The notes under the pieces: model-generated
What the model saw: the letters and a program-made list of their open reading frames with translations, nothing else
Told to the model about the DNA's origin: nothing
Database searches by the model: none
Program-made: the position numbers and the translations under genes
Origin: Akkermansia muciniphila
GTDB lineage: Bacteria > Verrucomicrobiota > Verrucomicrobiia > Chthoniobacterales > Chthoniobacteraceae
Length of the DNA stretch: 33,397 nt
NCBI GenBank assembly: GCA_945874745.1
Contig: CAMCIN010000010.1
Location: 1-33,397 of the forward strand
Direction: 5' to 3'
Part shown: one piece after another, positions 6,370 to 29,374 of the stretch
How positions within the stretch are numbered: position 1 is the first letter of the stretch
Layout of the letters: every line of letters starts with the position of its first letter

Positions 6370-6376
6370 GAGGTGG

Positions 6377-11528: not shown

Positions 11529-14500
11529 TCACTGCGCTTCGGGCGGAAGCAGCTCCAGGCGCCATCCTCCCGTCCGGGTCGCAGGCAGGACTCCTGTGTC
11601 GACCCAACCGGCACCTCGGAGCGGCTCTTCATCCGAGGGTCGAGCGACCACGCCCACCAGATTGCAACGCAGCCTCGTACCCGGTGAGACAAACGAACCG
11701 GCCCACTCTCCCCGGGTTTTGTCGAACCGGAATGTCAAAGTGGGCTGTACCGTGGAGGTGTAGTTCGCCACCCGAACCGTCCCTGTAGCTGACATAGCAA
11801 CGGTCCAAACGTAGATGTCCCCTAACACCGGATCCTCCGCCGTGAGATAGAGGGGAGGAATTTCCGCCACTGGAATACCGCTTCCCGAATTGAAAAACGT
11901 CTTCAACCCCAGCGCAGTAGGGCTCGGCCAGCGACAACTGGTTCCATTTTGAAAATCGACTGCTTGCGCTCCCGACCACCTGAACCCGGCTGTTTCCAAA
12001 CCGGCGAAATCGAAGCCATTATCGAAAACAGGCTTCCCGCTAATTTTGGAGACATAACAGGACTGCCGCTCCAGCCTGTCGTCTCCATGTGCAGTCGCAA
12101 CACCGGCACTCCAAACGGTTCCAACGGAAACGAGCTGGAACCGGAGTTGGCCGAGAAGGCTGGTGGTGGAAAGGAACTTGGAAGTGGAGGAGGTCCGTCC
12201 TTGGTAAATCTGGACCCTTGCGGCGTCGGCAGAAGTAGTGCTCAAGGTCGCGGAACCACTTCCCGTAGAACCGCTCAACCGGGACGTCCACAAGACCTTA
12301 CCAGTCTTGAGCACCTGCGCCAGGAGCGTTGCGTTATTATCTAATCCGGGCCCGCTGCCACTCTCGATGGTAAAGTCAGAACCGATCGCATAACGCCCTT
12401 CCAAAGAACCGAAATCTACAGTTCCAGACTCGACGGGCACCCCGGTGAGTTTGGTCAGTCCTCGAACGGCACCATTTCCCTCGCTCTTGCACCCCGCCTC
12501 GCCCAAGTACGGTGGAACCGAAACCCAATCGCGCACGAAGGCACTCAGCTCGAATGTGGCAGTCGAAAAATCCAACTCCAACGTGAGCGCCTGCCTGTTC
12601 GCCTGCGTCCCGACCCCGAGCTTGGGTGTGCAAACCAACCTGGCTGGATTCTCTGCAGAGGGTGTAAAGGAGGAAGAAAAAGATCGAACCACCGCCACGT
12701 AGGCCCGCTCGGTCCCAATCGGAGCAAGGTCGGTTTCCGGCGCTGTCTCCAGCGGAGCCGCCTCGTTGTAAAGGACTCTGCCCGAAACTGCACCGGTCTT
12801 ACTCACCGTCGCGACCAACATCCCACGATAGGCCGCGCCATCTCCAACGAGCCCTTCTTCGTCGGCAAGCAACAGTTCGTACGTACCAGCGGCGTCCTCA
12901 AGCGTCTTCAGCCTGACCTCGAAATCTGCTGTTACCACGCCACCGATGACTTCCCCATCCGCGTATTCCCGAGAAAGCACCACCCTGTAAAAGCCGTCCG
13001 CCGTGAGGCTCCTCAAGGGGACATCAATTTGGCCGTTTGCCGGAACAATCCCCGAAATCCCGGTCTCTACGCCCGAAGCTCTCACAAGTTTGTAGGTGGT
13101 TCGCAACGCATCAGGCGGATTTAAATCCACGCTCACCCTTACACTTGTCGCCGTGCCTCTGATGACATTCGTCGCCTTTACGGGATCGGGATTCCCGAGC
13201 ACCGAGATTCCGCGACCGGGCGATATTGTGAGGGTCGTCACCCTGCTCTGCTCGGCCGTCGGGTAAAATGGGTTTCTGACCTCGACAAAATATTGAGCGG
13301 AACCCGTCCGAGAGGTAGGCACCGAATAGGTCGAGCCCGTACCGACCAACGTGCTGCCCCCCCCCTCCATAAGGTACCATTTATAGGAAAAAGGCCCGGT
13401 TCCACTCACAGCAACGCCCAGAGACACCTTTGCATCAACGGTCACAGAGATAGAAGCCGGAGGTTGGGTCAGAATCCTCGGTGGGAGATTCACCACAAGT
13501 TGCGCTGCCCTGCTGGTCACGCTTCCGAGGGCGTTACTGACTAGGACGTCATAGAAACCTGCGTCCTTTTCCTGAACGTTTCGCAACTCAAGAGTAGCCG
13601 CTGTGCCGCCGCTGCTCGGCACACCGTCCTTCCGCCACTGGTACACCAAAGGTTGGCTACCACCCGCATCCACCGAAAAAGTCAAAGTGTCACCGATTTT
13701 GACCTCGGAACGTACCGTCGGCTCAGACTTAATTTCGGGCGGAGTTAAAATTGATACTACTGAAGAGTCGCTGAACACCGGTCCCACCACATTTCTCACC
13801 TCAACCTTGTAGGTCCCAGCGTCCGAGTTGGTCGTCGCCTGAACACGATAGGTTGCTGCCGTCCCGCCGTTGATCGGAACCTCATTTTTGTACCACTGGT
13901 ACGTCAGTTGCGCTGTTCCAGTAGCAGAGACCGTCAAGTTGAACGGTTTTCCAACCGCCACGGCCACCTCTTTCTCCGGCTGATTGAAGATCGAGACAGG
14001 CGTGTTCACCGTGATACTCGCAGTGCCCGCCTGCAACACGCTTCCCGCTTTTAGTTCCACACGATAAAGTCCGGCATCCGTGGCTCTCACTGGTGATAGC
14101 CGGTACACTGCCAGGGTTCCGCCGCTCAGGGCCACATTGTTGCGATACCACTGGACTGTGGTGGTACTCGGCCCATCCCAGTCAACCTCCAACGCTGCGC
14201 TGGTACCTGCCACAAGCGTCGCAGCCTGCGGCCCCTTGCGGATCGCCAGCTGCGGTTCCACTGTGAACCGAACCGGGGCACTGGTCCTGAGCGTGACTCC
14301 AGCGAGTAGTTCCACTTGGTAAACGTCTGTGTCGGCCACCTTTGCTGAGGGGAATCTTAGGATCGCCGAGGTGCCCCCGCTCAGGGCCACCCCGTTCCGG
14401 TACCACTGTAAGGTTGTGCTACCCGGCCCCTCCCAACCAACTTCCAAAGCCGCGCTGGTACCTGCCAGAACCGTTGCAGACTGAGGCTCCCTGAGGATAG

Positions 14501-16670
14501 CCAACTGCGGTTCCACTGTGAGCCGAACAGGGACACTGTTTTGCAGCTCCGACGCAGCCCGAAGCTCCACCCGGTAATCACCTGTGTCGGTCAATTTAGC
14601 TGAGGAAAACCTCAGGATCGCCGAGGTTCCGCCGCTCAGGAGCACGTTGTTCCTATACCACTGAAAAGTAGTGTTGCTCGGCCCCTGCCAAACGACTTCC
14701 AAGGCCACCGCCGTTCCCACCACAACCGTTGCAGCCCGAGGAGCGCTGAGGATCGCCAGTTGCGTGCTGGTACCTACCGTCGCCGTCCCCGAGGTGACAG
14801 TCCCGGATGTGTTGCTAGCCTCAACCGTGTACACTCCCCCCCCGGCAGCACCCGAAGCCATTGTGTAGGAGGCTCCCGTGGCTCCCGAAATCGCCACTCC
14901 GTCACGATACCACTGATAGGAAAGGGTCCCCGGACCGACGGTAGTCGCCGTCAGCGTCAAAGGAGCTGTACCCCCCACCGGATGCGAAAGAAACACAGGC
15001 AACCCGGAGGGCGTCCCCTTGATTACGGTGTTGAGGAACGGATCCACCGCGTAAACCGTCCCTTCCGCGTCCACCGTCAGCGCTCGGGGAGCTGCGAAAT
15101 AGTCCACCGCGGCAGTTAAGTTTACCGGCAGACCGCTCGCCGGCGTGCTCAGGCTGACATCCCCCAGCAACTGCACAGTGCTTTCCGTAGCCGCGTACAG
15201 GTTGCTTCCAGCGCCCAACGCCAGATCCGTAATCGGAAAGGGATAGGGGCCGTAGTTTGTGGCAGTAAAAGTTCCGGTGGTGAGGCGCGAGAAAACCTTG
15301 AATTCAGCGCCTTCGTACGCAGCGGCGAAGATTTTTCCACTGCTGTCCAACGCCATCGCCATCGGCACTGGTTGCGTGCCCGTGTACGCCTCGGGCAGTT
15401 CACCAAAGAGAAGTGTGAACTGCGTTTTGCTCACCACTTTCCGGATGGACGAATCATCGAGCACATACAGACCGCCGCTCGGGTCCAGTGCGACCTTCCA
15501 CGGTGTGTTGAGTCCGCCAGTCACTCCAAACTGACCGGCCACTCCCGCCACCGTGCTCACACTGGCGGAGGAGAGCCCGGGACTGGTTAGCTTCCGGACC
15601 GTGTTAGTGTTGGGCTCGGCAATGTAAACCGCCCCCGCCTTGTCCACGGCAATCCCCTGCGGAGAATCCAACCGTGCTGTGCTCAGCGCGCTGCCATCTA
15701 CACTGCCCTGGCCCTGTGCGCCGAGCGATCCCGCAACAGTCGTCACCACCCCGGTTTGCGTGACCTTGCGAATCGCATGGTTGTTTGTGTCCGCCACGTA
15801 GATGTTCCCCAGTCCGTCCATGGCAATGGAGGACGGATTGTTGAACTGCGCCGCAAGCCCTGTACCGTTTACACTGCCTGGCAGACCGCTCCCCGCCAGG
15901 GTAGTCCAATCGTAGGTAGCCTTCTGCAGATTTGGGGCCACTTTTGTGGCCACTCCCACGTAGGCTGGAGTGCTGTAGACCTCCCCGAAGGAATTGCGCA
16001 CGACAACGTCGTAACGCCCCGCGTTGACAGTGCCCACCGCCGATAGCAGATAGCTCGCCCCTGTCGCGCCCGCAATGGCCACCCCGTTTCTGCGCCATTG
16101 GTAAGTCACTCCACTTTCCCCCGCGGTCACCCGCAGTGTGTAGGGCAATCCCGTTTTGACGCTTCCTCCCGACGGGTTCTCGATGATGTAAGCCCCGCCT
16201 TCCACCACTGTAAGCCACGCCCGCGTACTGGTCACGCTCCCTCCGTCTCCAGTGACGACCACATCGTAACCCGCGGTCCCCCCATAATTCTCGTCACTTT
16301 GCACGGTTGCGTCGATCCTGTAGGTCGCCGAGGTTGCGCCAGCCAGCGCGACGCCGTTTTTGCGCCACTGGTAGCGTAACGTCCCCCCTCCCGCGGCCAC
16401 CACGCTGAAAACCGCCGGGAAACCCGCCGTCACCTTCACCTCCACGGGCTGCACGGTGATCACGGGCAACTCCGCCGACACCGCGGCAGCCATCGCCGAA
16501 ACCACCAGCATCGAGGCTACCTTTACCGGACTGAAATTCTCCCTTGCGCCCGGAGACCAAGCAAAGCCGCGGGAAACCAGCGAACTCCAAAGACAAAAGA
16601 CCGCCACAACGAAAGAAACGTGGCGGGAGACAGCGCGGCTACGGACGGCGAATGCGAGTTGGGTAGTCAT
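11529..16670 (-). CDS. Secreted Ig-like/NHL beta-propeller protein (1,713 aa)
   Basis: N-terminal hydrophobic stretches (about residues 17-33 and 52-66) indicate export; cleavage after AAAVSA fits the second. Modules in order: two Ig-like domains (about 71-241, with YQWRKNGV and YQWRRNGV); six NHL blades (about 249-560, e.g. GLGNIYVADTNNHAIRKVT) expected to form a six-bladed propeller; one Ig (561-635); three tandem 85-residue Ig repeats (636-890, LAILSAP.., LAILREP.., LAIRKGP..); three more Ig domains (894-1152); and a roughly 560-residue C-terminal region shared with the downstream giant. It probably acts outside the cytoplasm in adhesion or ligand binding; no catalytic motif is seen. Start choice: ATG 16668-16670 is used; GTG 16697 adds nine residues, while ATG 16511 has AAAGG at 8 nt and starts just before a hydrophobic signal-like segment, so it is a real alternative. 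No LPxTG, PEP-CTERM or C-terminal membrane anchor is seen. Confidence 0.93.
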   Translation of the reverse strand: MTTQLAFAVRSRAVSRHVSFVVAVFCLWSSLVSRGFAWSPGARENFSPVKVASMLVVSAMAAAVSAELPVITVQPVEVKVTAGFPAVFSVVAAGGGTLRYQWRKNGVALAGATSATYRIDATVQSDENYGGTAGYDVVVTGDGGSVTSTRAWLTVVEGGAYIIENPSGGSVKTGLPYTLRVTAGESGVTYQWRRNGVAIAGATGASYLLSAVGTVNAGRYDVVVRNSFGEVYSTPAYVGVATKVAPNLQKATYDWTTLAGSGLPGSVNGTGLAAQFNNPSSIAMDGLGNIYVADTNNHAIRKVTQTGVVTTVAGSLGAQGQGSVDGSALSTARLDSPQGIAVDKAGAVYIAEPNTNTVRKLTSPGLSSASVSTVAGVAGQFGVTGGLNTPWKVALDPSGGLYVLDDSSIRKVVSKTQFTLLFGELPEAYTGTQPVPMAMALDSSGKIFAAAYEGAEFKVFSRLTTGTFTATNYGPYPFPITDLALGAGSNLYAATESTVQLLGDVSLSTPASGLPVNLTAAVDYFAAPRALTVDAEGTVYAVDPFLNTVIKGTPSGLPVFLSHPVGGTAPLTLTATTVGPGTLSYQWYRDGVAISGATGASYTMASGAAGGGVYTVEASNTSGTVTSGTATVGTSTQLAILSAPRAATVVVGTAVALEVVWQGPSNTTFQWYRNNVLLSGGTSAILRFSSAKLTDTGDYRVELRAASELQNSVPVRLTVEPQLAILREPQSATVLAGTSAALEVGWEGPGSTTLQWYRNGVALSGGTSAILRFPSAKVADTDVYQVELLAGVTLRTSAPVRFTVEPQLAIRKGPQAATLVAGTSAALEVDWDGPSTTTVQWYRNNVALSGGTLAVYRLSPVRATDAGLYRVELKAGSVLQAGTASITVNTPVSIFNQPEKEVAVAVGKPFNLTVSATGTAQLTYQWYKNEVPINGGTAATYRVQATTNSDAGTYKVEVRNVVGPVFSDSSVVSILTPPEIKSEPTVRSEVKIGDTLTFSVDAGGSQPLVYQWRKDGVPSSGGTAATLELRNVQEKDAGFYDVLVSNALGSVTSRAAQLVVNLPPRILTQPPASISVTVDAKVSLGVAVSGTGPFSYKWYLMEGGGSTLVGTGSTYSVPTSRTGSAQYFVEVRNPFYPTAEQSRVTTLTISPGRGISVLGNPDPVKATNVIRGTATSVRVSVDLNPPDALRTTYKLVRASGVETGISGIVPANGQIDVPLRSLTADGFYRVVLSREYADGEVIGGVVTADFEVRLKTLEDAAGTYELLLADEEGLVGDGAAYRGMLVATVSKTGAVSGRVLYNEAAPLETAPETDLAPIGTERAYVAVVRSFSSSFTPSAENPARLVCTPKLGVGTQANRQALTLELDFSTATFELSAFVRDWVSVPPYLGEAGCKSEGNGAVRGLTKLTGVPVESGTVDFGSLEGRYAIGSDFTIESGSGPGLDNNATLLAQVLKTGKVLWTSRLSGSTGSGSATLSTTSADAARVQIYQGRTSSTSKFLSTTSLLGQLRFQLVSVGTVWSAGVATAHGDDRLERQSCYVSKISGKPVFDNGFDFAGLETAGFRWSGAQAVDFQNGTSCRWPSPTALGLKTFFNSGSGIPVAEIPPLYLTAEDPVLGDIYVWTVAMSATGTVRVANYTSTVQPTLTFRFDKTRGEWAGSFVSPGTRLRCNLVGVVARPSDEEPLRGAGWVDTGVLPATRTGGWRLELLPPEAQ
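13995..14764 (-). repeat. Three tandem Ig-domain repeats, period about 255 nt
   Basis: Three consecutive 85-codon units within the 1,713-residue protein begin near 14757, 14502 and 14247. Each contains the core (T/F)xQWYRNx(V)xLSGGT and a Val-Glu-Pro-Gln-like linker. DNA conservation around the ccgctcagg and gcgctggtacctgcca segments shows they arose by duplication. The downstream giant has only one equivalent unit (about 19210-19460). Confidence 0.8.
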
Positions 16671-16732
16671 CAGGGGATCTGTTTGGGGAACACTCACAAG
16701 TCAGAATCGCGGGGGGAAGCCCGTGTACTTTA

Positions 16733-16741
16733 TTTATACCA
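16733..16741 (-). promoter_or_regulatory. Extended -10 promoter for the 1,713-residue protein gene
   Basis: The minus strand reads TGGTATAAA, an extended -10 with 5/6 match in the hexamer, and lies in the AT-richest part of this gap. Predicted transcription from about 16726 leaves a leader of about 30-55 nt to the GTG/ATG starts. No convincing -35 is seen. Confidence 0.4.
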
Positions 16742-16884
16742 CCTCCAACAGAGCAACACCCGCGCCATTTTGCCACCAACCTAATCCGGCAACCATTGCG
16801 GCCCCCATTTGCCTACAGGCCCATCCTGAAACTGTGCGATTAACGGTGTCACTTCCCGCTGATTCCTCAGCGGCCAGGGGGTTC

Positions 16885-16960
16885 ATCCGAAGATGATCCA
16901 GAGGTTCGCAGATGCTGGTTACTGTTTTTTTGTCCTCTGTTAAATCTGAAAGCTGCGGAG
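16885..16960 (+). repeat. Dispersed repeat, copy R2
   Basis: Copy in the 611-bp gap between the two giant genes (16671-17281). It aligns with R4 over cagatg(c/c)tg.ttactg...ttaaatct...tgcgg. The rest of this gap holds a second shared block (17014-17036) and copy R3. A minus-strand frame of 129 codons across R2 is not a convincing gene. Confidence 0.6.
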
Positions 16961-17013
16961 ACATTCTTAATCTGTTACGCAGCCGTCCCAAAGGGATTAA
17001 GCTGCTCGCGGAG

Positions 17014-17036
17014 GGCTCCTCGCTAATTTCAGTGGG
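17014..17036 (+). repeat. Second shared intergenic block, copy 1
   Basis: A 23-nt block (ggctcctcgct ... tttcagtggg) recurs at 30211-30233 with two mismatches, both times in a gap that also carries the dispersed repeat. It may be part of a longer, decayed mobile or repeat unit. Confidence 0.55.
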
Positions 17037-17157
17037 AAAGAGGTTCTGGGAGGTGGAACATGAAACTTCAAGAAACGGCTTGAGGATTGAATGAATTTCA
17101 CTCTGGAGGTCGTAGTGTGCCACTCCGTCGACTCTCCTAAGTAAAGCCTGGCCCTCT

Positions 17158-17248
17158 CATTCAGAAAACTATCCGGAGATTCCTCAGATTTAGCGGATGA
17201 GCGGAACCCACAAAAACATCTGTGGAAATCTGAGTCATCTGCGGATAC
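17158..17248 (-). repeat. Dispersed repeat, copy R3
   Basis: This is nearly the reverse complement of R5 across its whole length: the cctcagatttagc, acatctgtgg and tgagtcatctgcggata blocks match. It begins cattcagaaa like R1. It lies immediately downstream of the large giant gene's stop, before the promoter region of the smaller giant. Confidence 0.75.
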
Positions 17249-17281
17249 CTGCCCGTTTTCCTGAGAGGCGCGAAGAGTGCC

Positions 17282-20200
17282 TCAGGGAACCTGGGGGGGA
17301 GGAAGCAGTTCGAGTCTCCACCCCCCTGTCCGGGTCGAAGGAAGGGCCCCTGTCTCGACCCACCCGGCACCCCGGAGCGAATCGTCCAAGGGACGAGCAA
17401 CCACTCCGTACAGGTTGCAACGCAACTTCGTACCCGGTGAAACAAACGAACCGGTCCACTCTCCCCGGGTTTTGTCGAACCGGAATGTCAAAGTCGGCTG
17501 TGGCGACGAGGACGCGTTGTTCGCCACCCGGACCGTCCCGGTAGGCGATAGAGTCACCGGCCAAACGTAGGTCTCCTCTCCCACCGGATCCTTCGCCGTG
17601 AGATCAAAGGTACGATTGCCTTCGGGCGGTTCACCGCTTCCCAAATGGAAAAACGCCTTCAGATCATTCGCAGCGGTGCCCGGCCAGCGGCAACTGGTCC
17701 CATTTTGAAAATCCAGCACCTGCACGCCCGACCACCTGAAAGCGGGGGTTTCGACGTTATCCAAATAGAAGCCGTCATCAAAAATCGGCGTCCCGCCACT
17801 CTTGGAGACATAACAAGACTGCCGTTCCAACTTGTCATCCCCATTGGCAGTCAACACACCCGCACTCCAAGCGGTGCCTCCGGAAACAACCTGAAACCGG
17901 AGTTGGCCGAGAAGGCTCGTGGTGGAGAGGATTTTGGAAGTCGAGGAGGTCCTCCCTTGGTAGATCTGCGCAACCGCAGAATCGGCGGCGGTGGTGCTCA
18001 ACGTCGCGGAACCACTTCCTGTGGAACCGCTCAGACGGGATGCCCATAAGACCTTGCCAGTCTTGAGCACCTGCGCGAGAAGCGTCGCATTGTTGCTCAC
18101 GCCCGGGCCGCTTTCATCCTCAGGGGAAAAATCGGAGCCAATTACATACCGCCCCTCCAAAGATCCGAAGCCCGCAGTGCCAGACTCGACGGGCACCACA
18201 CTGAGCTTGGTGAGTCCTCGCACCGCACCAAACCCTTGGCTCACGCAGCCTTCTTCGTCCACATCCAACGGAACCGACACCCGGTCGCGTACCACAGCAC
18301 TCAGCTCGAATGTGGCAGCCGAAAAATCCAACTCCAACGCAAGCCCCTGCCTGTTAGCCTGCGTCCCGACCCCAAGTTTGGGGGTACAAACCAACTTGGC
18401 CGGATCCTCGGCAGAGGGTGTGAATGAGGAGGAAAAGGAGCGCACTACCGCCACGTAAGCCCGCTCGGTTCCGGTCGCCTCCTCCAGGGGAGCCGCCTCG
18501 TTGTACAAGACCCTGCCCGACACTGCCCCCGTCTTACTCACCGTTGCGATTAACAACCCACGGTAGGTCGCGTTGTCTCCCACCGCCCCATTGGAGTCAC
18601 TCAGCAACAGTTCGTAAGTGCCAGCGGCCTCTTCAAGCGTCCTCAACTCAACGACAAAGGCGGACGTCGTTACGCCGCTGATGACCTCCCCATCCACGTA
18701 TTCCCGAGACAGCACCACGCTGTAAGAGCCACCCGCCGTCAGGCTCCTTAGGGGAACCTCAATTTGCCCGCTCGCCGGAACAATTCCCGAAATCCCGGTC
18801 TCCGCACCCGAAGATCTCACCAGTTTGTAGCTGGTTCGCAACGCGTCAGGCGGATTTGCATCCACGCTCAGCTTTAACGTTGCCGCAGTTCCCCTGATGA
18901 TACTTGTGGGCCTTTCGGGATAGGGATTTTTCAGCACCGAGATTCCGCGGGTGGAGACCGTGACGGTCGCAGTCTCGCTGGAAATTACTCCCACAACATT
19001 TGCTACCTCAACCCGGTAGCTCCCGGTGTCAGAGTCAGTCGCCGCCCCCACACTGTAGGTCGAAGCGGTCGCGCCATTGAGCGGAACCCCATTTTTAAAC
19101 CACCGGTACGTCAGAGGCGCTGTTCCAGTGGCAGACACCGATAAGCTGAACGGTTTTCCAAACGGAACGACGTCCCTTTTCTCCGGTTGGCTGGTTATCG
19201 AAACGGGAGTGTTCACCGTGAGCCTCACTGTCGCGCTGGTAAGCGAAACGGTTCCGGCCTGAAGCGCCACGCGATAGTCACCTTGATCCGCACTTTTCAC
19301 CGCTGAAAAATTCAGACTCGGCGAGGTCCCACCAGCCACTGCCACACTATTGCGATACCACTGGAATGTGGTGTTGCTCGGCCCCCGCCAACCGACCTGC
19401 AGGGCCACCGGAGTTCCCTCAACAACCGATGCCGCCAGAGGCTCACTCAGGATTGCCAACTGCGTATCCACCACCGTCGCTGATTCGGAGGTCACGGTAC
19501 CAGCGGCGTTGCTGGCTTCCACCATGTAAACTCCCCCGCGCGCGCTCCCTGGCGCCATGGTATACGAGGCCCCTGTCGCACCGGGAACTGCTGCTCCGTC
19601 ACGGTACCATTGATAAGACACCGTGCCCGCTCCAATCGCGACAGCCGAAAGAGTCAGGGGAACACCGTGAACTCCCGTAGCACCAGCAGGATGCAATAGA
19701 AATGCCGGCAACCCCGTGGGGGTCCCTTTGACCACCGCATTCAGAGAGTCGATCACCGCATAGACAGACCCATCCTCGTCCACCGTCAGTCCACTAGGAG
19801 AGAACTGCGAGTAATCACCGTCCAAATACACATAGGCGTTCAAGCTCACCGGAACCCCGGCTGGGGGAAAGCTCTGACTGAGGTCTCCCAATAAGTACAC
19901 ACCCTCCTCCATTGCTGCGAAGAGATTGTTGCCGGCCCCGAAGGCAAGGTCTCGAATCGAAGGATACGGTCCGTAGTTCGTATTCCGGGAATAAATATTA
20001 CCGTCGCTCAGCGCAGCGTACAGCGTGCCGGTGCGATCCAAGGTCATGGCCGTCGGCCCAATCTCAGTGTAGTCCAAGCTGCCGTGCACCACTGTGAATT
20101 TGCCGGCACTCTCAACCTTCCTGATGGACGTCTGATCCATAAAGTAGACCGCACTGTTGGGGTCCACCTCTACTCTGATTGGTCCATTTCCGTCGGGCGG

Positions 20201-23200
20201 TTCCCCTGGCACCCCTGCCACCGTCGTCACGGCTGCCGTGGGCTGCCCCGGATTGGTCAACTTGCGAATCGTGTTATTAAATTGATCAGCGATGTAGACA
20301 GCACCCGACTTATCCACGACAACTCCGGTGGGATAACTGAACCGGGCCGTGCTCAGAGCGTTGCCATTCGCAAAGCCCCCCTCCGCACCGGCCAACCCAG
20401 CCACAGTGCTCACCACTCCGGACCGGGTGACCCTCCGGATCACATGATTTTCTGTGTCCGCCACGTAAAGGTTTCCAAGCCCGTCCATCGCTATGGAGGA
20501 AGGTCGGTTAAATGAAGCCGCCCTGCCCGTGCCGTCCGCACTGCTCCCTTCCCCGTTGCCTCCGGCCAGAATTTCCCATTGGTAAGTGATCTCCTGTAGG
20601 TTCAGAGCCACCTTCGGCGACGTGCCAACATACGCCGGAGCGCTGATCACCTCTTTTCCATCCCAGTCTTTGATCGCTACATCATAACGCCCGACATCCG
20701 TCGCGCGGAAGGATGGCAAAATCAGCGTTCGTCCCGTTCCTCCGGAGATCGGAACCCCATTCTTGCGCCATTGAAAGGTGGTATCTGGGTCATCAACCAA
20801 CACGCGCAAGCTATAGAACGCCCCCAGCTTGACAGTGCTCCCAACCGGGTTCTCGCGCACATAGACGCCCCCCTCAACCACCGTCAACCCCACCCGCGTG
20901 CTGGTCACGCTTCCCACATCTCCAGTCACCACGACGTCGTAACCAACCCCACTCACGGCCTCATCCGTTTTCTGAGTCTCCTCGATCCGATAGGTGGCCT
21001 CGGTGGCGTCCGCAATCGGCACTCCATTCTTGCGCCACTGATACCGCAACGTCCCGCCGCCCGTGGCCACGACGCTAAAGACCGCAGGCGCCCACTCCGC
21101 AACTTTCACTTCGAGCGGTTGCAACCGAAGGACCGGCGGCGATCCTGTCGCAATTTCCAAAGTCACGGTAGCTGTGGACACACCACCGGCGTTGGCCGCC
21201 CCAATGGTAATCGCGCTCGTGCCAACCGCAACCGGCGTTCCGGAAATCAGACCCGTGCTGGCGTAGAGGGAAAGCCCGGTGGGAAGTCCCGAGGCGGTGA
21301 ATGAGGTCGGGTTGTTCGTCGCGGCGATCTGATAACTGAAAGCGGCCCCCACCACTCCTCCTGCCAATGTGCCGCTCGTAATTACTGGCCGTGCCTGCGC
21401 GACGAGCAGCGTCAACGTAGCGCTTCCAGTGCCGGCCACATTTGTGGCCCCCAACGTCACCGTGCTCTGTCCCGCTGTCGTGGGCGTGCCGGAGATCACA
21501 CCCGTGCTCGCGTTCACGCTCAGCCCCGCAGGCAGCCCGCTCGCACTAAAGGAGCCCAGGCTGTTTGTCGCCGTGATCTGATAACTGAAAGCAGACCCGA
21601 CCGTCCCTCCTGCCGATGTGCCGCTCGTGATTACTGGCCGTGCCTGCGCGACGAGCAGCGTCAACGTAGCGCTTCCAGTGCCGGCCAAATTTGTGGCCCC
21701 CAACGTCACCGTGCTCTGTCCCGCTGTCGTGGGCGTGCCGGAGATCACACCCGTGCTCGCGTTCACGCTTAGCCCCGCAGGCAATCCGCTCGCACTGAAG
21801 GACGCCGGGTCGTTGGTCGCGGTGACTTGGTAGCTGAAGGCCGCCCCGATCGTACCAGAGGCGGCAGTCGCGCTGGTCAGGACCGGTCTGCTCGGAAGAT
21901 TGTTCACCGCCAGTACTGCATTTCCACTGGTCACGCCTCCAGAAGCGTTGCCCACCACCACGCTGTAGGTTCCCGCGTCCGAGAGTTGCGCCGAGCCGAT
22001 CGAATACATGGCGCTTGTCCCTCCAGTGATGTTCACGCCGTTCTTGCGCCACTGGTAGCCGAGTCCGGTTCCCGTCGCAGACACACTGAACGTGGCAACA
22101 CTCCCCGTCCCCACCGTCAGTCCCACAGGCTGGGTTGTAATAACCGGGACATCCAACAGCGTGTTCACCAACCGGAAATCATCCACCCAAAGCTGTCCCT
22201 CAGAAACCGGCCCATAATAGGTGTTCGCAAGCAAACCCACGGCGATTTCCCTCGTAGTAGTCGAATCCAGAATAAGCTCACTCAGGGGCGTACTCCGCAA
22301 AAACTTCCAATTCGTTCCCAATCCTGTGTCGTCGTACCAGGACTCGAACTTCTCCGCTCCCGCCCGGTAAATCACCCGCAGGCGGAACTCCACCAGAGAA
22401 GACTTTGCAACCACCTGACCCTCGGAAGGATCCGCGCCGGGACTAAACCCATACTGAAACCTCCCGTTCACCGGAGCAGAGTCGGTTCTGGCAAACTCCA
22501 CGCTAAAATTATTGTACGCGCCCGCACCGGAAACCGCCCTTGCGTCCGCCACGACCAACTGGATGCTGGACCCGCCGCCCGAGGAGTATGGGACGGCATT
22601 GCGCCCGCGCACTTCCACCGACCAGTCCACGTTGGCCGTCGGTCGGCCATTCCAAACGAGGTAGGCATTCTGCTCCGCGGTGGAACTCCCTGTGACTAAG
22701 AAACTCGCGTGCCCGTTCGCAGCCGCCACAGTCATGGTCCCGTGGTTGGCCTGCACGGCGGTCCACTGCGTCGAACTGAGCGCTGAGGTAAAGCTGTCGC
22801 TCCCATAGGTGCTGGCGGCGATCGTGAGAAACAGCGACGCGGTCCCCGTCCCAACTGTATTGACGGCCCCCAAGGTGACCGTGCTCTGGCCCGCCGTCGT
22901 GGGTGTGCCGGAGATGACCCCCCTCGTGTCCACGCTCAGGCCCGCAGGCAGTCCGCTCGCGCTAAAAGAAGTCGGGCTGTTTGTCGCCGTAATCTGGTAG
23001 CGGAAGGCCGTCCCTAAGGTGCCGCTCACTGCCAACGCGCTGTTCACAACCGGAGCAGGCGCCACAGGAAGGACCTTCACGAGGGGCGAGTCGAGCACCC
23101 CGCCGAACATATCCTCTGCCGAGATCGAAAACGCCAGGGAACCCCCACTCATGCCGGAGAGCGGCACGGCGGCACGCCACTTGTAGCGTCGCGTGCCATC

Positions 23201-26200
23201 CGCTGCGGGGATGAGTTCCTCCAAATCCGACTCAAAAACCTGTTTCGCCCCGTCCGGCCCCACGGCCACCGTGACGCGGCGCACCCCGGCCGCGTCCTGC
23301 ACCGTTCCATCCAGGCTCACCCAGCCATCATACGAGCTCAAGACCGTTACCGGGCTCATTTCCAGCACTGGTGGAGTGGAGTCCGCACGCGTCCCCAGAG
23401 CCTCCGTCCATTTTGGCTCGGCGACGATCATCGCCTCCTCAAGCCCAGCCACATCATCGAGAGTCAGAGAAGGAAACATGCTCTGCAAAAGCGCCCGGTT
23501 GATAGAATTCCGCTGGTAGAGGTTCCGGCTAAACTTGGGCAGGTCACTCCTCCAGCCCGGCGCGTGCTGGAAAAAGGCGTGGGGGGAAGCGGTCAGGCTG
23601 AACCCATCGGTAGTTTGCAAGGTGCGGCGCCCGGCCACAGCATCGGCCGCGTTGATGGACTCCAGTGTCTTGTTGACGGCGTTGCGGAATTCCCGTTCAG
23701 CATCGCGATTTTCTACCGTTTCGAGCCGCGCAATGCCGATGCTTTGGTCCTGCCGCTGCCCCAGCGCAGGGGTGCCCGCAGGATTCGCAAAGTCCGAAAA
23801 CACCTTGTACCGTTCCAGCGCCTGCTTGAAGCGGGAGACAAACTCGGCCTGCGCCGCCGGACCGGTTGTCGAAGCCGTCAAGAGGAGCGGGTATTTTGCC
23901 AGCAACGACTCGATCGAGAGCCGCCCGTTTTTGCCGTCCAACTGCAGGACGGCTAGGTCCACGTCGGTGTTTTGGGCTTCGAGCCATTTGACGGCGGCCA
24001 GTACAACATTGAGGAACGCGCGCAACACTTGCACATCGCCGTAATCGACGACGGCGCCTTCGCCCTGAAGTCCTAGCTCATAGGGACCGAAGGAGGTGAG
24101 AAATCCCGTGTCGGTGACCTTGGCGAGATTCGCCTCTGCCGCGGCAATTTTGGGGTAAAGCGTGCCCACCAGCCAAGCGCGTACCGGCGCGCTCAGCGCT
24201 CCTTTTGGAAAGCCATCGGCGCTCCATCGAAGCGTGGAATTGAGAGGATCGGCGCTCCCCGTAAATCCGAGTGCAGCAAGGTTGGTGGCGACGCCGGGAT
24301 CAGACCAGAGGTTGTACAGATCCAAGGCGGAGCGCAGAAACAAGGCAGCGCCATCCACTGGGTTTGCCGCCAGAGCCAGATTCAGCTGAGCAGATGCTGT
24401 CGAAAAATTCCGGGCGTTGAGCTCCTTACGAGCCTCTTTGACATTGGCGGAATCCACCACAGCCGCAGTCACACGGCCGCGGATGGCTGCCTTTCCGGAA
24501 ACCGCCTGCACCCAGTAGGAGCCCGCATTCCCCGGCACCGCCGAAATGGCCAGCTCTGGGGAGGTTCCCCCCGGCACGGCCACCCCGTTCTTGTACCACT
24601 GGTATGAGACGGTCGAACCTCCCGCGTTGATCCCGCCCTGCAGCCGCAAGCTGCCCCCGCTGACGGCAACCACAGAGGGCTGTCCGGACTGCGACCAGGA
24701 ATAAAAGGAGGCCACGGAGGTTGCGGTAGAGGCTCCGCGTGTGACAGTCAGATTATACGCTCCGAGACCGTCCGCCGGCATTGGATCAAAGCTCAAAGGC
24801 ACGGGAATTCCGCTTACGGGCGAGGGGAGGCCCCAGTCAGCATTTACCCCGGCCTGAACCGGTTCCGGCGCGTAGGTCATCCGCCAGTCCTGCCAAGGAT
24901 TTGAAAGGTCTCGCGGCGTGTAGTTGCCGATCTGGCCGAAATTGTTCCAACCCCACATCCACAGCACGCCGTCGGCGCCTACCGCGCCAAAGGAATAGCC
25001 GCCGGCAGCCGTTGAAATTATGCTGGGAGACACCGCCTTGGCAGAACTCCAGTCATCCCCGATTTCAAACAGCGTGCCATCGGGCCGCGTGCCAAGAACT
25101 GAGTATTCGGCAACGGCTACAGCCGTCCAACGAGCGTCTTGTGGTCCAACGCGGCGCGGAGTCATCTGGCCACCCCATCCGTAACTGTTCCAATCCAGGT
25201 CCGGAAAGAAGTTGGGAGCGAAGCCCCAAGCCCAGAGCGTTCCGTCCTTTTTGACAGCCGCAGAAAGAACGTTGCTCCACGTGTCTGAGCTGCACGTGGC
25301 GACGGTCAGCCAGTCTTTGTCGGTTCCCAACTGTGCGGGGGAGGACACGGTGCCGTAGTAGCCCCAGCCCAGGCCCAGGTGGCCATTTGCGTTGTCTCCC
25401 CACGCCCAAAGGGTGCCGTCGCGCTTGATGGCAAAGTTCATCCGGGCGCCGCGGCCAAGTCCCGCCGCCATCTCAGCCCAATCGCTTCCGGAATCCACGG
25501 GCGTCCCGGTCCCGTCGGACCATACAAAGAGCCTGCCGCCCCGGGTCAGCACTAGCGCGTGATTGTCCGAAGCGGAAACGCGGGCCCATGTCTGACTCGT
25601 GGCGGTCAAACCAGTCAACGCAGTCAGTTGCTCGAAAGTTCCAAATGGTGAACGTCCCGAAACCCAGAGAGACCCACTCCGGGTCAATGCGACCGTGTAA
25701 CTTCTCCCACAGCTCACCGAAGCCCAGTTTGAGCCGTTGCCTACTCTTTGGGGAAACTGACGGGCGGTGCCGGCACCAAGTTGGCCGTCGGAATTAGAGC
25801 CCCAGGTCCAGAGAGTGCCGTCCTGTTTGATCGCCGCCGTGTGGTAGCCTCCGATACTCACGGAGGCCCAATCATCCACCGCAGACGCGGTTCCAGCCTG
25901 AAGCGATGCGCCGTTGCGCCTCCAGGTGAACTGAAGCGTGCCCGACGTAGGCACCACAACAGCCATCGCCCCCGCTCCCCCAGCGACAATCTCCCGCGCC
26001 CGCTCGGGCACCACCGGCAGGACTGCGGCTGCGGCTGCGCTCAGTGTGACCGCTGCCGAGGTCGTGGTGACATTGCCCGAAAAATCCCACGCGCTCGCAG
26101 CGATTGTTCCCGCACCCACAACCGCGGGCAGCTGGGCCGTCCAGTCATAAACGCGAGCTGCAGCTCCCGTTGCGGGAGCCCGTTCCACAACCCTCGCCAC

Positions 26201-29083
26201 CGCGCTGGCGACGTCGACACCCGATGTGCGGGTTACCAGGACACGTCCCACGCCCGTCACATCCGCAACGGTTCCGGAAACTGTCAGCCAACCGTTTGTC
26301 GCAAGCGACGCTCCGTTTTGGAGCGTTACGGAGGCGGAACCCGAGTTGAGGCTCAACAGCTGCACATTCGGCGGAACCGTCTCGCGGCCCGTCTTGAACC
26401 ACTCGGTCAATCCGGGTTCCGCTGCGGCCAGTTCCGCCTCGAGACGGCCAATCTCCTCCAGCTTGAGAGCGGGGTAGAAGGCGATGGCGGTGTCCGCCCG
26501 GAACGTGCCGGGCACATACGCGTTCGCCTTGAATGCGGGAAGCTCGTTCCGCCAGCCCGGGGAGTGTTTGAAGAACACCCAGGGCGAAGCCTGCACAGCG
26601 AGCGTGCCCTCAAAGCCAGTCGTGGGCAGCGAGAAAGACTGCAGGCCGGCGCCGGCCGAGGTCGCAGCAAGGGAGGCCTGCAACCTTTCGCAGTTCAGCC
26701 TCAGACGGCGTTCACCTTCCCTGTCGTCGTCGGTGGTCAGCGTGAACAATGCCTGCTCCGCGTCCAAGCGCCTGGCACCGGTCGAACCCGCTGCGGGATT
26801 CGCGAAGGCGGAGAAGTTGAGGTAGTAGGAAATCGCCTTTCCAAACCGGTCAACGAACTCGGTCTGGGCCTCCGTGGCGGTGGCTGACGCGTTCAGCAAA
26901 TTCGGATACATCGCCAACAGGGATTCCAGCGACAGCCCCCCTGTGTTCCGTTTGTCTTTCAGCGCGAGCAAGCCTACGTCCGTGTTTTGAGTTTCCACCC
27001 ATTTGAGGAGTGACATCACTAGGTTCAGCCCGGCGCGCGCCACCTGAACGTCGCCGTAATCAAAGGGGATGGTCTCCGTGCTGGTGGAGCCGAAATCAGA
27101 GGCCACCAAGGCGGCTATAAACCCGGTCGAGGTCACATTCCCAAGCCGCACCTCCGCCTCCTTGAGCTTTGGATAGAGGATGTCCTTCATCCAGTTGCGC
27201 GCCTCGGAGGTGAGAGCTCCTCCCGCCGGAAAGCCGGCATGTTGGAGCGTAAAGTTGAAAGGATCGGTACTCCCGGTGAAGCCCAACTGATTCAGCATCA
27301 AGGTCGTTCTGGAGTCCTGAATGAGCAGATAGACGTCCGTGAACGCCTTCAGCACGTTGGCTGCAGGATGCGAGGGGGTGGCTTGAAGCATCGTTGCCAG
27401 CGCGCTGCTGGCAGCCGCGTGCGACTTGGCTGCAAGGAGGGTGTGGACTCCCGCGAGTGCGCTATCCTCAATCACCACCGATGCGGACTCGCTGCGGGCC
27501 GCCACGCCTCCGCGCTTCATCTCCAGCCAATACACGCCGGAGGCGGAGGTCTGCGCGTTCGCCAAACTATAGCTCGGAGACGTCGCGCCGCTGAGCGCCA
27601 CGCCGTTCCGGTACCACTGATAGGTTGGAGCCGTGCCGGCCCCAAGGGACCCGCCGGCGGCCAGCTGGAGCAAACCGCCCGCAGTGAAGCGCCGCGTCTC
27701 GGGCTGGCTCGTCCACTGTGCCAGCGCCACGGAACCTGCCGCCACGTTGTTTACGAGCAACTCGTAGACCCCAAGGTTTGCCGTTTGGAAGTTTGGGAGG
27801 ACCAGGCCCAGCGGCGCCCCAAGCACCGGGCTGCTCAAGCCCCAGTCCTGATGCACCCCCACCTGGACTGCATCGTAACGGACCATGCCCGCCGCGGAGG
27901 TCGTGTCCTGCACGTCTCCAAGCTGGCCGTAATCGTTTCCACCCCAGGCCCACAAGGTTCCGTCCACCCCAAGCGCCAGCCCCTCGTTATTCCACTTGCT
28001 GGAGTCCACCGAACGCCCGACAACACTACGGCAGGCCACCGGAATCTCCCCAACCTGCCAGGACCAGCTCTCAGCCACCTGATGCACCCTCCCCTCGCCG
28101 TCCACCGCGAGAGGAAGCACATCGGCAGCGAGGCTCTTCCAATCGGAACGCGAACCCAACCGGCGCGGGGTGTATTGCGTCTGCCAGCCGTTGTTAAACA
28201 GCCCCCAACCACCGCCTCCGCCCATTCTCTGCCAGGCCCAGAGGGTTCCATCCTCCCGCAACGCCACTGCATATCCCGGACCCGCGCACGCCGCCTTCCA
28301 GCGCCCCGACTGCACCATGTAAAATCCGCCCTCGGGCGAGCTTTGCGCCATTCCCGCCCCCATTGCATTGTAACCCCACAACGTCCCGTCCCGCTTCAAG
28401 GCAACCACCATCTCTCCCCAGGCGCTCACCGAAGCCCAGTCCCGCACTGTGCCAATCAACGAAGGCGCCGATTCCATGTACGGTTGGAACGCATAGACAC
28501 CCCCGAGAGAGACAAGATACATCGCTCCCGTCCCGCCAAAAGCCGCCGACTCCCAAAACTGGTCCCCCGCGACCTTCTTCATTTCCGGGGAAGTGGCCGT
28601 CCCGCCCCAATACCAGGCGGTTCCGTCTTTTTTGATGGCGCAACTGCGGTCTCCGCTCGCAAAGACGCCCATCCAGTCGGCGGCCGAACCGATCCGCGTG
28701 GGGGCACTCCGCCTCGGATTACCCGCGGCTACGGACGCAAGGGCAAGCTGCCAGTTTTGGTTGTTTCCCCAGCCCCAGAGGGATCCGTCGTTCTTGAGCG
28801 CCAGCGTGTGGGAGGCCCCTGCGGCAACGCTCTTCCAGTCGTTGGCAGCCACCGCGCTGCCGCTTCCGACTACGACCCCGGCCTTCTTCCAGACGTACGA
28901 GGCAGCAGCGCTTCCCGTGACGACGGCGCCGACGCCCACCGTCGCGCCGGTCTGGACCTCAGTGGGCCTGGGCGCAACTTGAAACAAGGGCGTTTGGGCC
29001 CTCAGCCCCGAGGCGCCGAGGCACACAAGGAGACCGAGCAAGAAAGCCCTTAAAATAAACGGAATCCGTCTGGATACATTCAT
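17282..29083 (-). CDS. Giant secreted multi-propeller Ig protein (3,933 aa)
   Basis: ATG 29081-29083 opens a clear Sec signal peptide (MNVSRRIPFILRAFLLGLL, cleavage after GLRA, about residue 30); the in-frame TTG two codons earlier is unnecessary. Modules: RCC1-like seven-bladed propeller (about 80-415, e.g. LALKNDGSLWGWG); Ig (455-540); uncharacterised helical domain (540-900); beta domain (900-1035); second seven-bladed RCC1 propeller (1070-1417); Ig (1461-1545); second helical domain (1545-1898); beta domain; one putative-Ig repeat (2012-2092); concanavalin-like domain (2093-2311); Ig (2312-2397); three putative-Ig repeats (2398-2646); two Ig domains; six NHL blades (2832-3128); three Ig domains; and a C-terminal region (3379-3933). 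From about 2648 on it parallels the 1,713-residue protein. No protease, glycosidase or anchor motif is visible. Expected roles are surface adhesion, polysaccharide capture or inter-cell contact, all inference. No Shine-Dalgarno site. Confidence 0.95.
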   Translation of the reverse strand: MNVSRRIPFILRAFLLGLLVCLGASGLRAQTPLFQVAPRPTEVQTGATVGVGAVVTGSAAASYVWKKAGVVVGSGSAVAANDWKSVAAGASHTLALKNDGSLWGWGNNQNWQLALASVAAGNPRRSAPTRIGSAADWMGVFASGDRSCAIKKDGTAWYWGGTATSPEMKKVAGDQFWESAAFGGTGAMYLVSLGGVYAFQPYMESAPSLIGTVRDWASVSAWGEMVVALKRDGTLWGYNAMGAGMAQSSPEGGFYMVQSGRWKAACAGPGYAVALREDGTLWAWQRMGGGGGWGLFNNGWQTQYTPRRLGSRSDWKSLAADVLPLAVDGEGRVHQVAESWSWQVGEIPVACRSVVGRSVDSSKWNNEGLALGVDGTLWAWGGNDYGQLGDVQDTTSAAGMVRYDAVQVGVHQDWGLSSPVLGAPLGLVLPNFQTANLGVYELLVNNVAAGSVALAQWTSQPETRRFTAGGLLQLAAGGSLGAGTAPTYQWYRNGVALSGATSPSYSLANAQTSASGVYWLEMKRGGVAARSESASVVIEDSALAGVHTLLAAKSHAAASSALATMLQATPSHPAANVLKAFTDVYLLIQDSRTTLMLNQLGFTGSTDPFNFTLQHAGFPAGGALTSEARNWMKDILYPKLKEAEVRLGNVTSTGFIAALVASDFGSTSTETIPFDYGDVQVARAGLNLVMSLLKWVETQNTDVGLLALKDKRNTGGLSLESLLAMYPNLLNASATATEAQTEFVDRFGKAISYYLNFSAFANPAAGSTGARRLDAEQALFTLTTDDDREGERRLRLNCERLQASLAATSAGAGLQSFSLPTTGFEGTLAVQASPWVFFKHSPGWRNELPAFKANAYVPGTFRADTAIAFYPALKLEEIGRLEAELAAAEPGLTEWFKTGRETVPPNVQLLSLNSGSASVTLQNGASLATNGWLTVSGTVADVTGVGRVLVTRTSGVDVASAVARVVERAPATGAAARVYDWTAQLPAVVGAGTIAASAWDFSGNVTTTSAAVTLSAAAAAVLPVVPERAREIVAGGAGAMAVVVPTSGTLQFTWRRNGASLQAGTASAVDDWASVSIGGYHTAAIKQDGTLWTWGSNSDGQLGAGTARQFPQRVGNGSNWASVSCGRSYTVALTRSGSLWVSGRSPFGTFEQLTALTGLTATSQTWARVSASDNHALVLTRGGRLFVWSDGTGTPVDSGSDWAEMAAGLGRGARMNFAIKRDGTLWAWGDNANGHLGLGWGYYGTVSSPAQLGTDKDWLTVATCSSDTWSNVLSAAVKKDGTLWAWGFAPNFFPDLDWNSYGWGGQMTPRRVGPQDARWTAVAVAEYSVLGTRPDGTLFEIGDDWSSAKAVSPSIISTAAGGYSFGAVGADGVLWMWGWNNFGQIGNYTPRDLSNPWQDWRMTYAPEPVQAGVNADWGLPSPVSGIPVPLSFDPMPADGLGAYNLTVTRGASTATSVASFYSWSQSGQPSVVAVSGGSLRLQGGINAGGSTVSYQWYKNGVAVPGGTSPELAISAVPGNAGSYWVQAVSGKAAIRGRVTAAVVDSANVKEARKELNARNFSTASAQLNLALAANPVDGAALFLRSALDLYNLWSDPGVATNLAALGFTGSADPLNSTLRWSADGFPKGALSAPVRAWLVGTLYPKIAAAEANLAKVTDTGFLTSFGPYELGLQGEGAVVDYGDVQVLRAFLNVVLAAVKWLEAQNTDVDLAVLQLDGKNGRLSIESLLAKYPLLLTASTTGPAAQAEFVSRFKQALERYKVFSDFANPAGTPALGQRQDQSIGIARLETVENRDAEREFRNAVNKTLESINAADAVAGRRTLQTTDGFSLTASPHAFFQHAPGWRSDLPKFSRNLYQRNSINRALLQSMFPSLTLDDVAGLEEAMIVAEPKWTEALGTRADSTPPVLEMSPVTVLSSYDGWVSLDGTVQDAAGVRRVTVAVGPDGAKQVFESDLEELIPAADGTRRYKWRAAVPLSGMSGGSLAFSISAEDMFGGVLDSPLVKVLPVAPAPVVNSALAVSGTLGTAFRYQITATNSPTSFSASGLPAGLSVDTRGVISGTPTTAGQSTVTLGAVNTVGTGTASLFLTIAASTYGSDSFTSALSSTQWTAVQANHGTMTVAAANGHASFLVTGSSTAEQNAYLVWNGRPTANVDWSVEVRGRNAVPYSSGGGSSIQLVVADARAVSGAGAYNNFSVEFARTDSAPVNGRFQYGFSPGADPSEGQVVAKSSLVEFRLRVIYRAGAEKFESWYDDTGLGTNWKFLRSTPLSELILDSTTTREIAVGLLANTYYGPVSEGQLWVDDFRLVNTLLDVPVITTQPVGLTVGTGSVATFSVSATGTGLGYQWRKNGVNITGGTSAMYSIGSAQLSDAGTYSVVVGNASGGVTSGNAVLAVNNLPSRPVLTSATAASGTIGAAFSYQVTATNDPASFSASGLPAGLSVNASTGVISGTPTTAGQSTVTLGATNLAGTGSATLTLLVAQARPVITSGTSAGGTVGSAFSYQITATNSLGSFSASGLPAGLSVNASTGVISGTPTTAGQSTVTLGATNVAGTGSATLTLLVAQARPVITSGTLAGGVVGAAFSYQIAATNNPTSFTASGLPTGLSLYASTGLISGTPVAVGTSAITIGAANAGGVSTATVTLEIATGSPPVLRLQPLEVKVAEWAPAVFSVVATGGGTLRYQWRKNGVPIADATEATYRIEETQKTDEAVSGVGYDVVVTGDVGSVTSTRVGLTVVEGGVYVRENPVGSTVKLGAFYSLRVLVDDPDTTFQWRKNGVPISGGTGRTLILPSFRATDVGRYDVAIKDWDGKEVISAPAYVGTSPKVALNLQEITYQWEILAGGNGEGSSADGTGRAASFNRPSSIAMDGLGNLYVADTENHVIRRVTRSGVVSTVAGLAGAEGGFANGNALSTARFSYPTGVVVDKSGAVYIADQFNNTIRKLTNPGQPTAAVTTVAGVPGEPPDGNGPIRVEVDPNSAVYFMDQTSIRKVESAGKFTVVHGSLDYTEIGPTAMTLDRTGTLYAALSDGNIYSRNTNYGPYPSIRDLAFGAGNNLFAAMEEGVYLLGDLSQSFPPAGVPVSLNAYVYLDGDYSQFSPSGLTVDEDGSVYAVIDSLNAVVKGTPTGLPAFLLHPAGATGVHGVPLTLSAVAIGAGTVSYQWYRDGAAVPGATGASYTMAPGSARGGVYMVEASNAAGTVTSESATVVDTQLAILSEPLAASVVEGTPVALQVGWRGPSNTTFQWYRNSVAVAGGTSPSLNFSAVKSADQGDYRVALQAGTVSLTSATVRLTVNTPVSITSQPEKRDVVPFGKPFSLSVSATGTAPLTYRWFKNGVPLNGATASTYSVGAATDSDTGSYRVEVANVVGVISSETATVTVSTRGISVLKNPYPERPTSIIRGTAATLKLSVDANPPDALRTSYKLVRSSGAETGISGIVPASGQIEVPLRSLTAGGSYSVVLSREYVDGEVISGVTTSAFVVELRTLEEAAGTYELLLSDSNGAVGDNATYRGLLIATVSKTGAVSGRVLYNEAAPLEEATGTERAYVAVVRSFSSSFTPSAEDPAKLVCTPKLGVGTQANRQGLALELDFSAATFELSAVVRDRVSVPLDVDEEGCVSQGFGAVRGLTKLSVVPVESGTAGFGSLEGRYVIGSDFSPEDESGPGVSNNATLLAQVLKTGKVLWASRLSGSTGSGSATLSTTAADSAVAQIYQGRTSSTSKILSTTSLLGQLRFQVVSGGTAWSAGVLTANGDDKLERQSCYVSKSGGTPIFDDGFYLDNVETPAFRWSGVQVLDFQNGTSCRWPGTAANDLKAFFHLGSGEPPEGNRTFDLTAKDPVGEETYVWPVTLSPTGTVRVANNASSSPQPTLTFRFDKTRGEWTGSFVSPGTKLRCNLYGVVARPLDDSLRGAGWVETGALPSTRTGGWRLELLPPPQVP
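21145..21890 (-). repeat. Three tandem putative-Ig (He_PIG-like) repeats, period 249 nt
   Basis: Each 83-residue unit has FSYQ(I/V)(T/A)ATN, SASGLPAGLS and GVISGTPTTAGQSTVTLGA. Units starting near 21371 and 21620 are almost identical in DNA for about 190 nt, far closer than to the third unit or to the separate unit at about 22810-23050. Confidence 0.85.
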
Positions 29084-29374
29084 GACCAATGGTTTTGTAA
29101 AAAAATGCCGGCCTGACTGGCTGGCTAGCGCTGTTCAGGGGACTCAAGCTCGGCTTCGACCAACTCCCGGGAACCACTCCTCGTTGCCGGAAGCGCTCTC
29201 ATTTGACAGGGAAAGTTTCGTGGGAGATATGCATCTTCACATAGCGCGCAAACAGTCAGCCTTGCAATACCTTAATTAATCATTCTTTTCTTTTATGATC
29301 CCAGCTCAAGATTTTTGTGTCTAGTCTAACACTTAAAGAGGCCGGCTGGCTCTTCATTGAACGGGAAGCAAGCC

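Follow-up and report, generated by a model that had tools for sequence, protein, structure and literature searches.

A 33.4-kb contig of a verrucomicrobial genome carries two giant genes side by side on the same strand, which raises the question of what kind of proteins they encode and whether they work together, since the original prediction, made from the sequence, took them for a perhaps two-part extracellular system of adhesion or nutrient capture. The window, namely the whole stretch of DNA analyzed (33,397 nucleotides), was the complete contig, and the assembly amounted to 4.21 Mb in 382 contigs with 94% completeness. Together, the two genes took up 17.5 kb of the window, i.e., about half of it, as had been predicted. 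The features of the two genes were as follows.

11529–16697, minus strand: gene 1 (P1, P0001), open frame of 1,722 residues, ATG possible at 16670; signal-peptide-like start, two Ig units, NHL propeller, seven Ig units, and C-terminal module (CTD)
16560–16670, minus strand: gene 1, signal-peptide-like start counted from the ATG at 16670 (hydropathy heuristic)
15948–16472, minus strand: gene 1, Ig1-Ig2, residues 76–250 (Pfam, motif scan, alignment)
15003–15947, minus strand: gene 1, NHL propeller, residues 251–565 (Pfam, alignment)
13212–15002, minus strand: gene 1, Ig array with the 255-bp tandem repeat, residues 566–1162 (Pfam, motif scan)
11532–13211, minus strand: gene 1, CTD, residues 1163–1722, Ig/FN3-like domain and three predicted beta-barrels (structure prediction, VIA-align)
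17282–29089, minus strand: gene 2 (P2, P0002), open frame of 3,935 residues from TTG at 29089, alternatively from ATG at 29083 (ORF, Pfam)
23063–29083, minus strand: gene 2, front, residues ~1–2009, two copies of RCC1-like propeller, Ig, and helical domain (Pfam, alignment)
21188–23062, minus strand: gene 2, linker, residues 2010–2634, He_PIG and Ig units with a 249-bp tandem pair (Pfam, repeat scan)
20618–21187, minus strand: gene 2, Ig-Ig, residues 2635–2824, where the block shared with gene 1 begins (Pfam, alignment)
19712–20617, minus strand: gene 2, NHL propeller, residues 2825–3126 (Pfam, alignment)
18947–19711, minus strand: gene 2, three Ig units, residues 3127–3381 (Pfam, motif scan, alignment)
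17285–18946, minus strand: gene 2, CTD, residues 3382–3935 (alignment)

Pfam analysis indicated Ig_3/I-set and NHL domains in both P1 and P2, the NHL matches being above the cut-off in each, and additionally RCC1 and He_PIG in P2, where WD40_RLD, RCC1_2, and RCC1 were above the cut-off. BLASTP similarity ran from around residue 2583 of P2 through the C-terminus. The predicted common scheme, Ig-Ig-NHL-Ig followed by a shared C-terminal part, was thus confirmed by both methods. In a global alignment, the identity between P1 and P2 was 75.5% in the C-terminal ~560 residues, 59.2% in Ig1-2, and 57.4% in the NHL propeller. A simple motif scan counted nine Ig units with the W motif in P1 (two before the propeller and seven after) and five in the matching block of P2 (two before and three after), and a 255-bp tandem repeat of 2.5 copies was present at 14115–14758; the extra tandem Ig units expected in one of the genes therefore belong to gene 1. 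The expected N-terminal extension of the other gene, ~2,600 residues ahead of the shared block, was found in gene 2.

In gene 2, the 249-bp tandem pair of the He_PIG region (21313–21802, 93% matches) is a recent domain duplication. Elsewhere in the window, among the frames at 6377–7243 and 5410–6567, the longest frame of accA overlapped a same-strand frame with a LysM domain, and the true start of accA is probably further in. A 195-aa ORF with a hydrophobic start (29550–30137), flanked by gene 2 and an esterase-like gene, gave no Pfam match at E ≤ 1e-4. Scans for tRNAs, Rfam families, promoters, and terminators gave nothing useful.

The two genes were compared at strictly aligned four-fold sites with a best-fitting breakpoint, that is, one chosen to fit. 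Before P1 residues 655/656, 78 of 125 sites differed, and after them 91 of 246, corresponding to a step from 0.62 to 0.37 at window positions 14732 and 19432 (P2 residues 3219/3220), next to where the tandem Ig array begins. The Fisher p value was 5e-06 when the choice of the breakpoint was ignored, and when that choice was allowed for, none of 1000 shuffles reached the likelihood gain of the step. Protein constraint does not explain the step, because the Ig unit before it had 71% amino acid identity and a four-fold difference of 0.79, whereas barrel 3 of the CTD had 68% identity and a difference of only 0.32. The likely cause of the step is recombination of the 3′ half, by gene conversion or otherwise.

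The CTD was used as a single-sequence query, giving matches in nine of 12 genomes of the genus (one to seven each where present) and in none of 26 other relatives. The MAGs of the genus relatives are presumably of freshwater origin. The two genes, predicted to be paralogues, accordingly belong to a larger giant-protein family. In 27 of the 29 CTD genes, the frame ended within nine residues past the CTD profile match, although two of the 27 carry no information on this point (one is truncated by a contig end, and in the other the frame stops within the module). The exceptions were G010:C6, with 131 residues after the match, and G000:C235, with at least 63 up to the contig end. At L045:7515–9299 (G001:C26), the module frame stopped inside the module, the profile search reading through stops; this is probably a decaying copy.

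What stands in front of the module varied widely. Of the 29 CTD proteins, 25 (P1, P2, and 23 others) were scanned with Pfam, and Ig-type domains were matched at E ≤ 1e-3 in 18 of them, 16 above the Pfam cut-off and two below. Further domains in various members were NHL, PKD, Peptidase_S8, FGE-sulfatase, Laminin_G_3 (which occurs with FG-GAP), Big_9, He_PIG, PATR, and RCC1; LRR_5 and Lcl_C/YHYH were each found in one of the scanned proteins, a Reprolysin_5 metallopeptidase was matched below the cut-off in one, and five had no Pfam match. One frame of 4,479 residues combined 26 NHL stretches with an FGE-sulfatase domain. By a simple, uncontrolled hydropathy rule, 18 of the 22 CTD genes with a complete 5′ end had a signal-peptide-like start and four failed, and a simple scan found no lipobox in the 22 starts. 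Such starts support the predicted extracellular location. Judged by sequence, the CTD is the tail that unites a family found across the genus, whose fronts are interchangeable.

In none of the 22 aligned tails (alignment A1, drawn from the 29 CTD genes) did a Pfam family name the barrel part; Ig-type and two further families each matched a single member, and none of the 22 matched an NCBIfam family. A recurrent partner gene was looked for and not found: among ORFs of at least 110 aa up to four places away, in stretches that in part stop at contig ends, no family lay beside more than two of the 29 CTD genes, so that no partner is pointed to. The tail module appears to be undescribed so far, as nothing on it was found in the openly licensed papers, which leave most subscription papers and preprints outside.

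The relationship between the two genes was examined with a tree of 24 of the 29 modules. P1 and P2 were sisters with a support of 100/99, and their neighbours were G010:C114 (99/97), G000:C110 (93/85), and G003:C11 (98/96). In the genus genome G003, one gene of 1,758 aa with the same scheme adjoins radC, as in the window. Among the fetched stretches of the 11 genomes in which radC was found, the radC site held the pair in one, a single gene in one, and no CTD gene in nine; G010 gave no radC match. The 29 CTD genes lay on 28 loci without a second tandem pair, but some of the loci stop at contig ends, where a neighbouring CTD gene can be missed. The sister placement and the single copy of G003 at radC point to tandem duplication rather than to a conserved two-part unit, and as far as tree, synteny, and identity show, the pair is a young, lineage-specific tandem duplication beside radC.

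That the tandem genes constitute a conserved two-part system for adhesion or nutrient capture is accordingly very unlikely. Adjacency, the same strand, and the common scheme speak for it, but no other pair was seen in the fetched stretches, the duplication is young, the radC site is mostly without CTD genes, and 611 bases separate the end of gene 2 from the ATG of gene 1. The functional proposal was thus rejected. It had been said that single, unrelated Ig proteins without pairing in related genomes, or an intracellular location, would speak against the prediction as a whole; pairing was indeed absent from the fetched stretches of the relatives, whereas their proteins were related and no intracellular location was indicated. 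Near radC in the genome G004, there was also an open frame of 1,906 aa (L081:11939–17656) without a Pfam match at E ≤ 1e-4, which could be a genuine gene or a long frame open by chance.

The front of gene 2 had relatives of its own. A single unit occurs twice within its ~2,000 residues, and the two copies share 33% identity across 999 columns (E 6e-136). A helical-looking domain of ~355 residues without a Pfam match occurs twice in gene 2 (26378–27445 and 23390–24418); it was found in six of 40 genomes of the family, its own genome included, and twice each in two free-standing frames of sister genomes.

L148:575–9106: free-standing frame of 2,844 aa (G001:C88)
L149:5091–13631: free-standing frame of 2,847 aa (G009:C91)

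These frames aligned to residues 43–2009 and 21–2009 of gene 2, respectively, with 43–44% identity. Both proteins carry a divergent form of the C-terminal module and then a further domain, which we take from its motif to be FGE-sulfatase. Because the front is homologous to free-standing giants that end differently, gene 2 is by these alignments a chimera, to which one type of giant contributed the front and another the back.

The structure of the CTD was predicted with AlphaFold2. The whole module with 22 genus sequences gave a pLDDT of 88.6 and a pTM of 0.85, and residues 258–560 predicted apart gave 85.2 and 0.83, respectively. In the model, the ~560 residues are predicted to form one Ig/FN3-like domain and three beta-barrels. 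VIA-align placed residues 1–102 closest to GbpA (Z 9.8), followed by the T-cell receptor, titin, and other Ig/FN3-type domains (8.0–8.8). For barrel 1 (residues 103–251), the C-terminal fHbp barrel was closest (Z 10.3, rmsd 3.2, 110 aligned), and fHbp took all of the 13 top rows. For barrel 2 (residues ~265–428), the fHbp barrel (Z 7.4, rmsd 3.2, 104 aligned) competed with a designed barrel (7.3), HphA (6.7), and OmpA (6.4). For barrel 3 (residues ~429–555), the best row was rhizavidin (Z 6.0, rmsd 4.4, 105 aligned), with PmSLP, which depends on Slam, at Z 4.5 (rmsd 3.3, 102 aligned); rows of haemophilin and TbpB spanned barrels 2 and 3. Since the Z values of barrels 2 and 3 were below 8 and tied with those of other barrels, these two are likely to be barrels of unsure kinship, and the resemblance could be merely a common arrangement.

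Foldseek against the PDB ranked no barrel protein convincingly. Its highest-ranked hits superposed over long stretches but poorly (best E 1.8e-05 with rmsd 30.8, and E 2.3e-03 with rmsd 17.5); further down, single domains were fitted by CopC, which matched the Ig-like part (probability 1.00, target TM 0.54), and by lipocalin-type prostaglandin D synthase (TM 0.33–0.36). The assignment of the barrels accordingly depends on VIA-align. The CTD profile against PDB sequences gave two weak rows, both of pilus-anchor proteins (E 0.18 and 0.23, residues 16–98). The possibility that the three barrels are one sequence repeat was rejected, as hhalign between the parts gave no match.

A restriction of the CTD to a single genus, at first suggested by the searches, did not hold up once profile searches had turned up divergent relatives outside it, both in other genera and in other families. 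The CTD profile gave partial matches in other genera, amounting to 16 of 40 family genomes in all (E ≤ 1e-3), and the tails from other genera aligned with the barrel part. Profiles of the divergent form, A5 (7 rows) and A6 (21 rows), were built from rows hand-chosen from the matches. The hhalign comparison of A1 and A6 gave 99.2% (E 1.8e-19, 357 columns), and the parts alone gave 97.4% (E 1.5e-11) for barrel 1 and 96.4% (E 1.2e-09) for barrels 2/3, against at most 0.37% in five column-shuffled controls. On these profile comparisons, the CTD is homologous over the barrel part to a wider, divergent module. The divergent form is a three-part module of ~350 residues, and none of the 21 A6-type modules had a Pfam or NCBIfam name.

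The wider form gave 61 matches in all 12 genus genomes (one to nine each), of which eight fell on the first barrel of CTDs counted before; some frames contributed two rows. With the 7-row profile at E ≤ 1e-6, it was found in at least nine of 194 sampled genomes of the phylum, in five families, with up to 10 candidates scored per genome. In 27 frames from 30 loci examined, 6–92 residues followed the match. In these frames, the wider form is therefore terminal or nearly so, but there are two FGE-type exceptions elsewhere: it precedes a further domain in the 2,844- and 2,847-aa proteins and hence is not always terminal.

Taken together, these findings suggest a history for the pair and a role for its tail. 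One ancestral gene beside radC was duplicated in tandem; gene 2 bears a front of the other giant type (RCC1-like/helical, internally duplicated) ahead of its NHL-Ig-CTD block, in gene 1 the Ig array is expanded, and recombination, as suggested by the silent sites, would have kept the 3′ halves of both genes alike. As for the role, we give about an even chance to the reading that the genes encode two Sec-exported giant surface proteins and that the CTD is a C-terminal module for surface export and/or anchoring. The chain would reach the periplasm through Sec, recognition of the tail would take place at the outer membrane, and the part displayed outside would be the variable front with its propellers, Ig stalks, protease, or leucine-rich repeats, which may bind polymers, particles, or other cells there. 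In the openly licensed literature, we found no paper on how Verrucomicrobiota display such giants on the surface. A more tentative proposal, which we regard as doubtful, is that the tail is the address of an unnamed outer-membrane export and display route of Verrucomicrobiota, in which tandem TbpB-type barrels borne by giant proteins are recognized by a translocator other than Slam, T9SS, or exosortase, and that such a route is a relative of type XI secretion in working principle, having arisen or survived in the phylum.

Two other readings of the tail, each of which we consider unlikely, draw on the same observations. The module might be a working head, in which three lipocalin-, avidin-, or TbpB-like barrels on Ig/NHL stalks bind a ligand such as a glycan, metal, haem, or pigment. 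The rhizavidin row of barrel 3, the haemophilin and TbpB rows over barrels 2 and 3, and the low-ranking lipocalin rows of Foldseek are consistent with this, and barrels of such a class are established as possible ligand carriers, haemophores and metal-binding cargo being named in PMC12282271; however, the terminal position behind very different fronts, such as Peptidase_S8 and leucine-rich repeats, suits a common service role better. The same terminal position in nearly all cases would be left unexplained if the module served matrix proteins as a structural spacer or an adhesive tail, with a general exit (e.g., type II secretion) for these proteins and no role for the module as an export signal, a reading in keeping with the lack of a lipobox in the simple scan of 22 starts, with the lack of a recurrent partner gene, and with an all-beta architecture typical of extracellular proteins. 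Returning to surface export and/or anchoring as the preferred role, the CTD offers a handle by which candidate surface proteins of the genus can be listed from sequence, and a single domain for testing export or anchoring. If the barrels are export signals, the cargo principle of type XI secretion would reach beyond Proteobacteria into a further phylum, and would do so without the translocator known for it.

Several known systems resemble the present one in part. The C-terminal parts of PEP-CTERM/exosortase proteins and of autotransporters target proteins in diderm bacteria, and in having a C-terminal targeting part, they are like the CTD proteins. No PEP-CTERM tail was matched in P1 or P2 by Pfam or NCBIfam models, and the PEP-CTERM protein model ScyF matched the NHL part only, far below the cut-off. 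Pfam found no autotransporter barrel in P1, P2, or the 22 CTDs; passenger repeats (PATR) are present in one further CTD protein, but again no such barrel. TIGR04183 and TIGR04131, which we take to be the NCBIfam models of type IX sorting tails, matched neither P1 and P2 nor the 22 CTDs. In type IX secretion, one conserved C-terminal domain is borne by many unrelated exported proteins and is preceded by an Ig-like domain (PMC4804311), and the CTD is similar in all these respects. However, the type IX domain as described in the accessible part of that source is a small Ig-like sandwich, whereas the present tail has ~450 residues of barrels.

The cargo of type XI secretion, including fHbp, TbpB, and haemophilins, has a variable front and a C-terminal eight-stranded barrel and is translocated by a DUF560 protein (PMC12282271, PMC8406197); haemophores and metal-binding proteins are among such cargo (PMC12282271). 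The CTD proteins are like it in the variable front, the C-terminal barrel, and the Sec signal, at least as this cargo is described in the accessible text of PMC12282271, and in the model, barrel 1 shows the TbpB/fHbp fold by which type XI cargo is judged (fHbp Z 10.3). They differ in having three barrels, an Ig/FN3-like domain, and giant fronts, and they come from Verrucomicrobiota, whereas the cited type XI surveys, in the parts accessible, concern Proteobacteria. None of the 22 CTDs matched the Pfam families of cargo barrels at E ≤ 0.1. Slam/DUF560 was found in none of the 12 genus genomes, which are incomplete drafts and in which the search control was silent too, and the DUF560 model gave weak matches in 16 of 194 phylum genomes. 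Because there was neither DUF560 nor a cargo-family sequence match, the CTD proteins are not filed as type XI members; by analogy, they may nevertheless work like type XI cargo.

The pair itself also has a counterpart. In Apilactobacillus kunkeei, Giant1–5 are adjacent giant surface-protein genes diversified by recombination (PMC12863079), and the present pair shares the adjacency and probably the recombination. They differ in that A. kunkeei is a lactic acid bacterium and its giants have beta-solenoid fronts, the likeness being drawn from the description in the accessible part of that paper. Thus, adjacent recombining giant surface proteins, as described there, are already known in other bacteria (PMC12863079).
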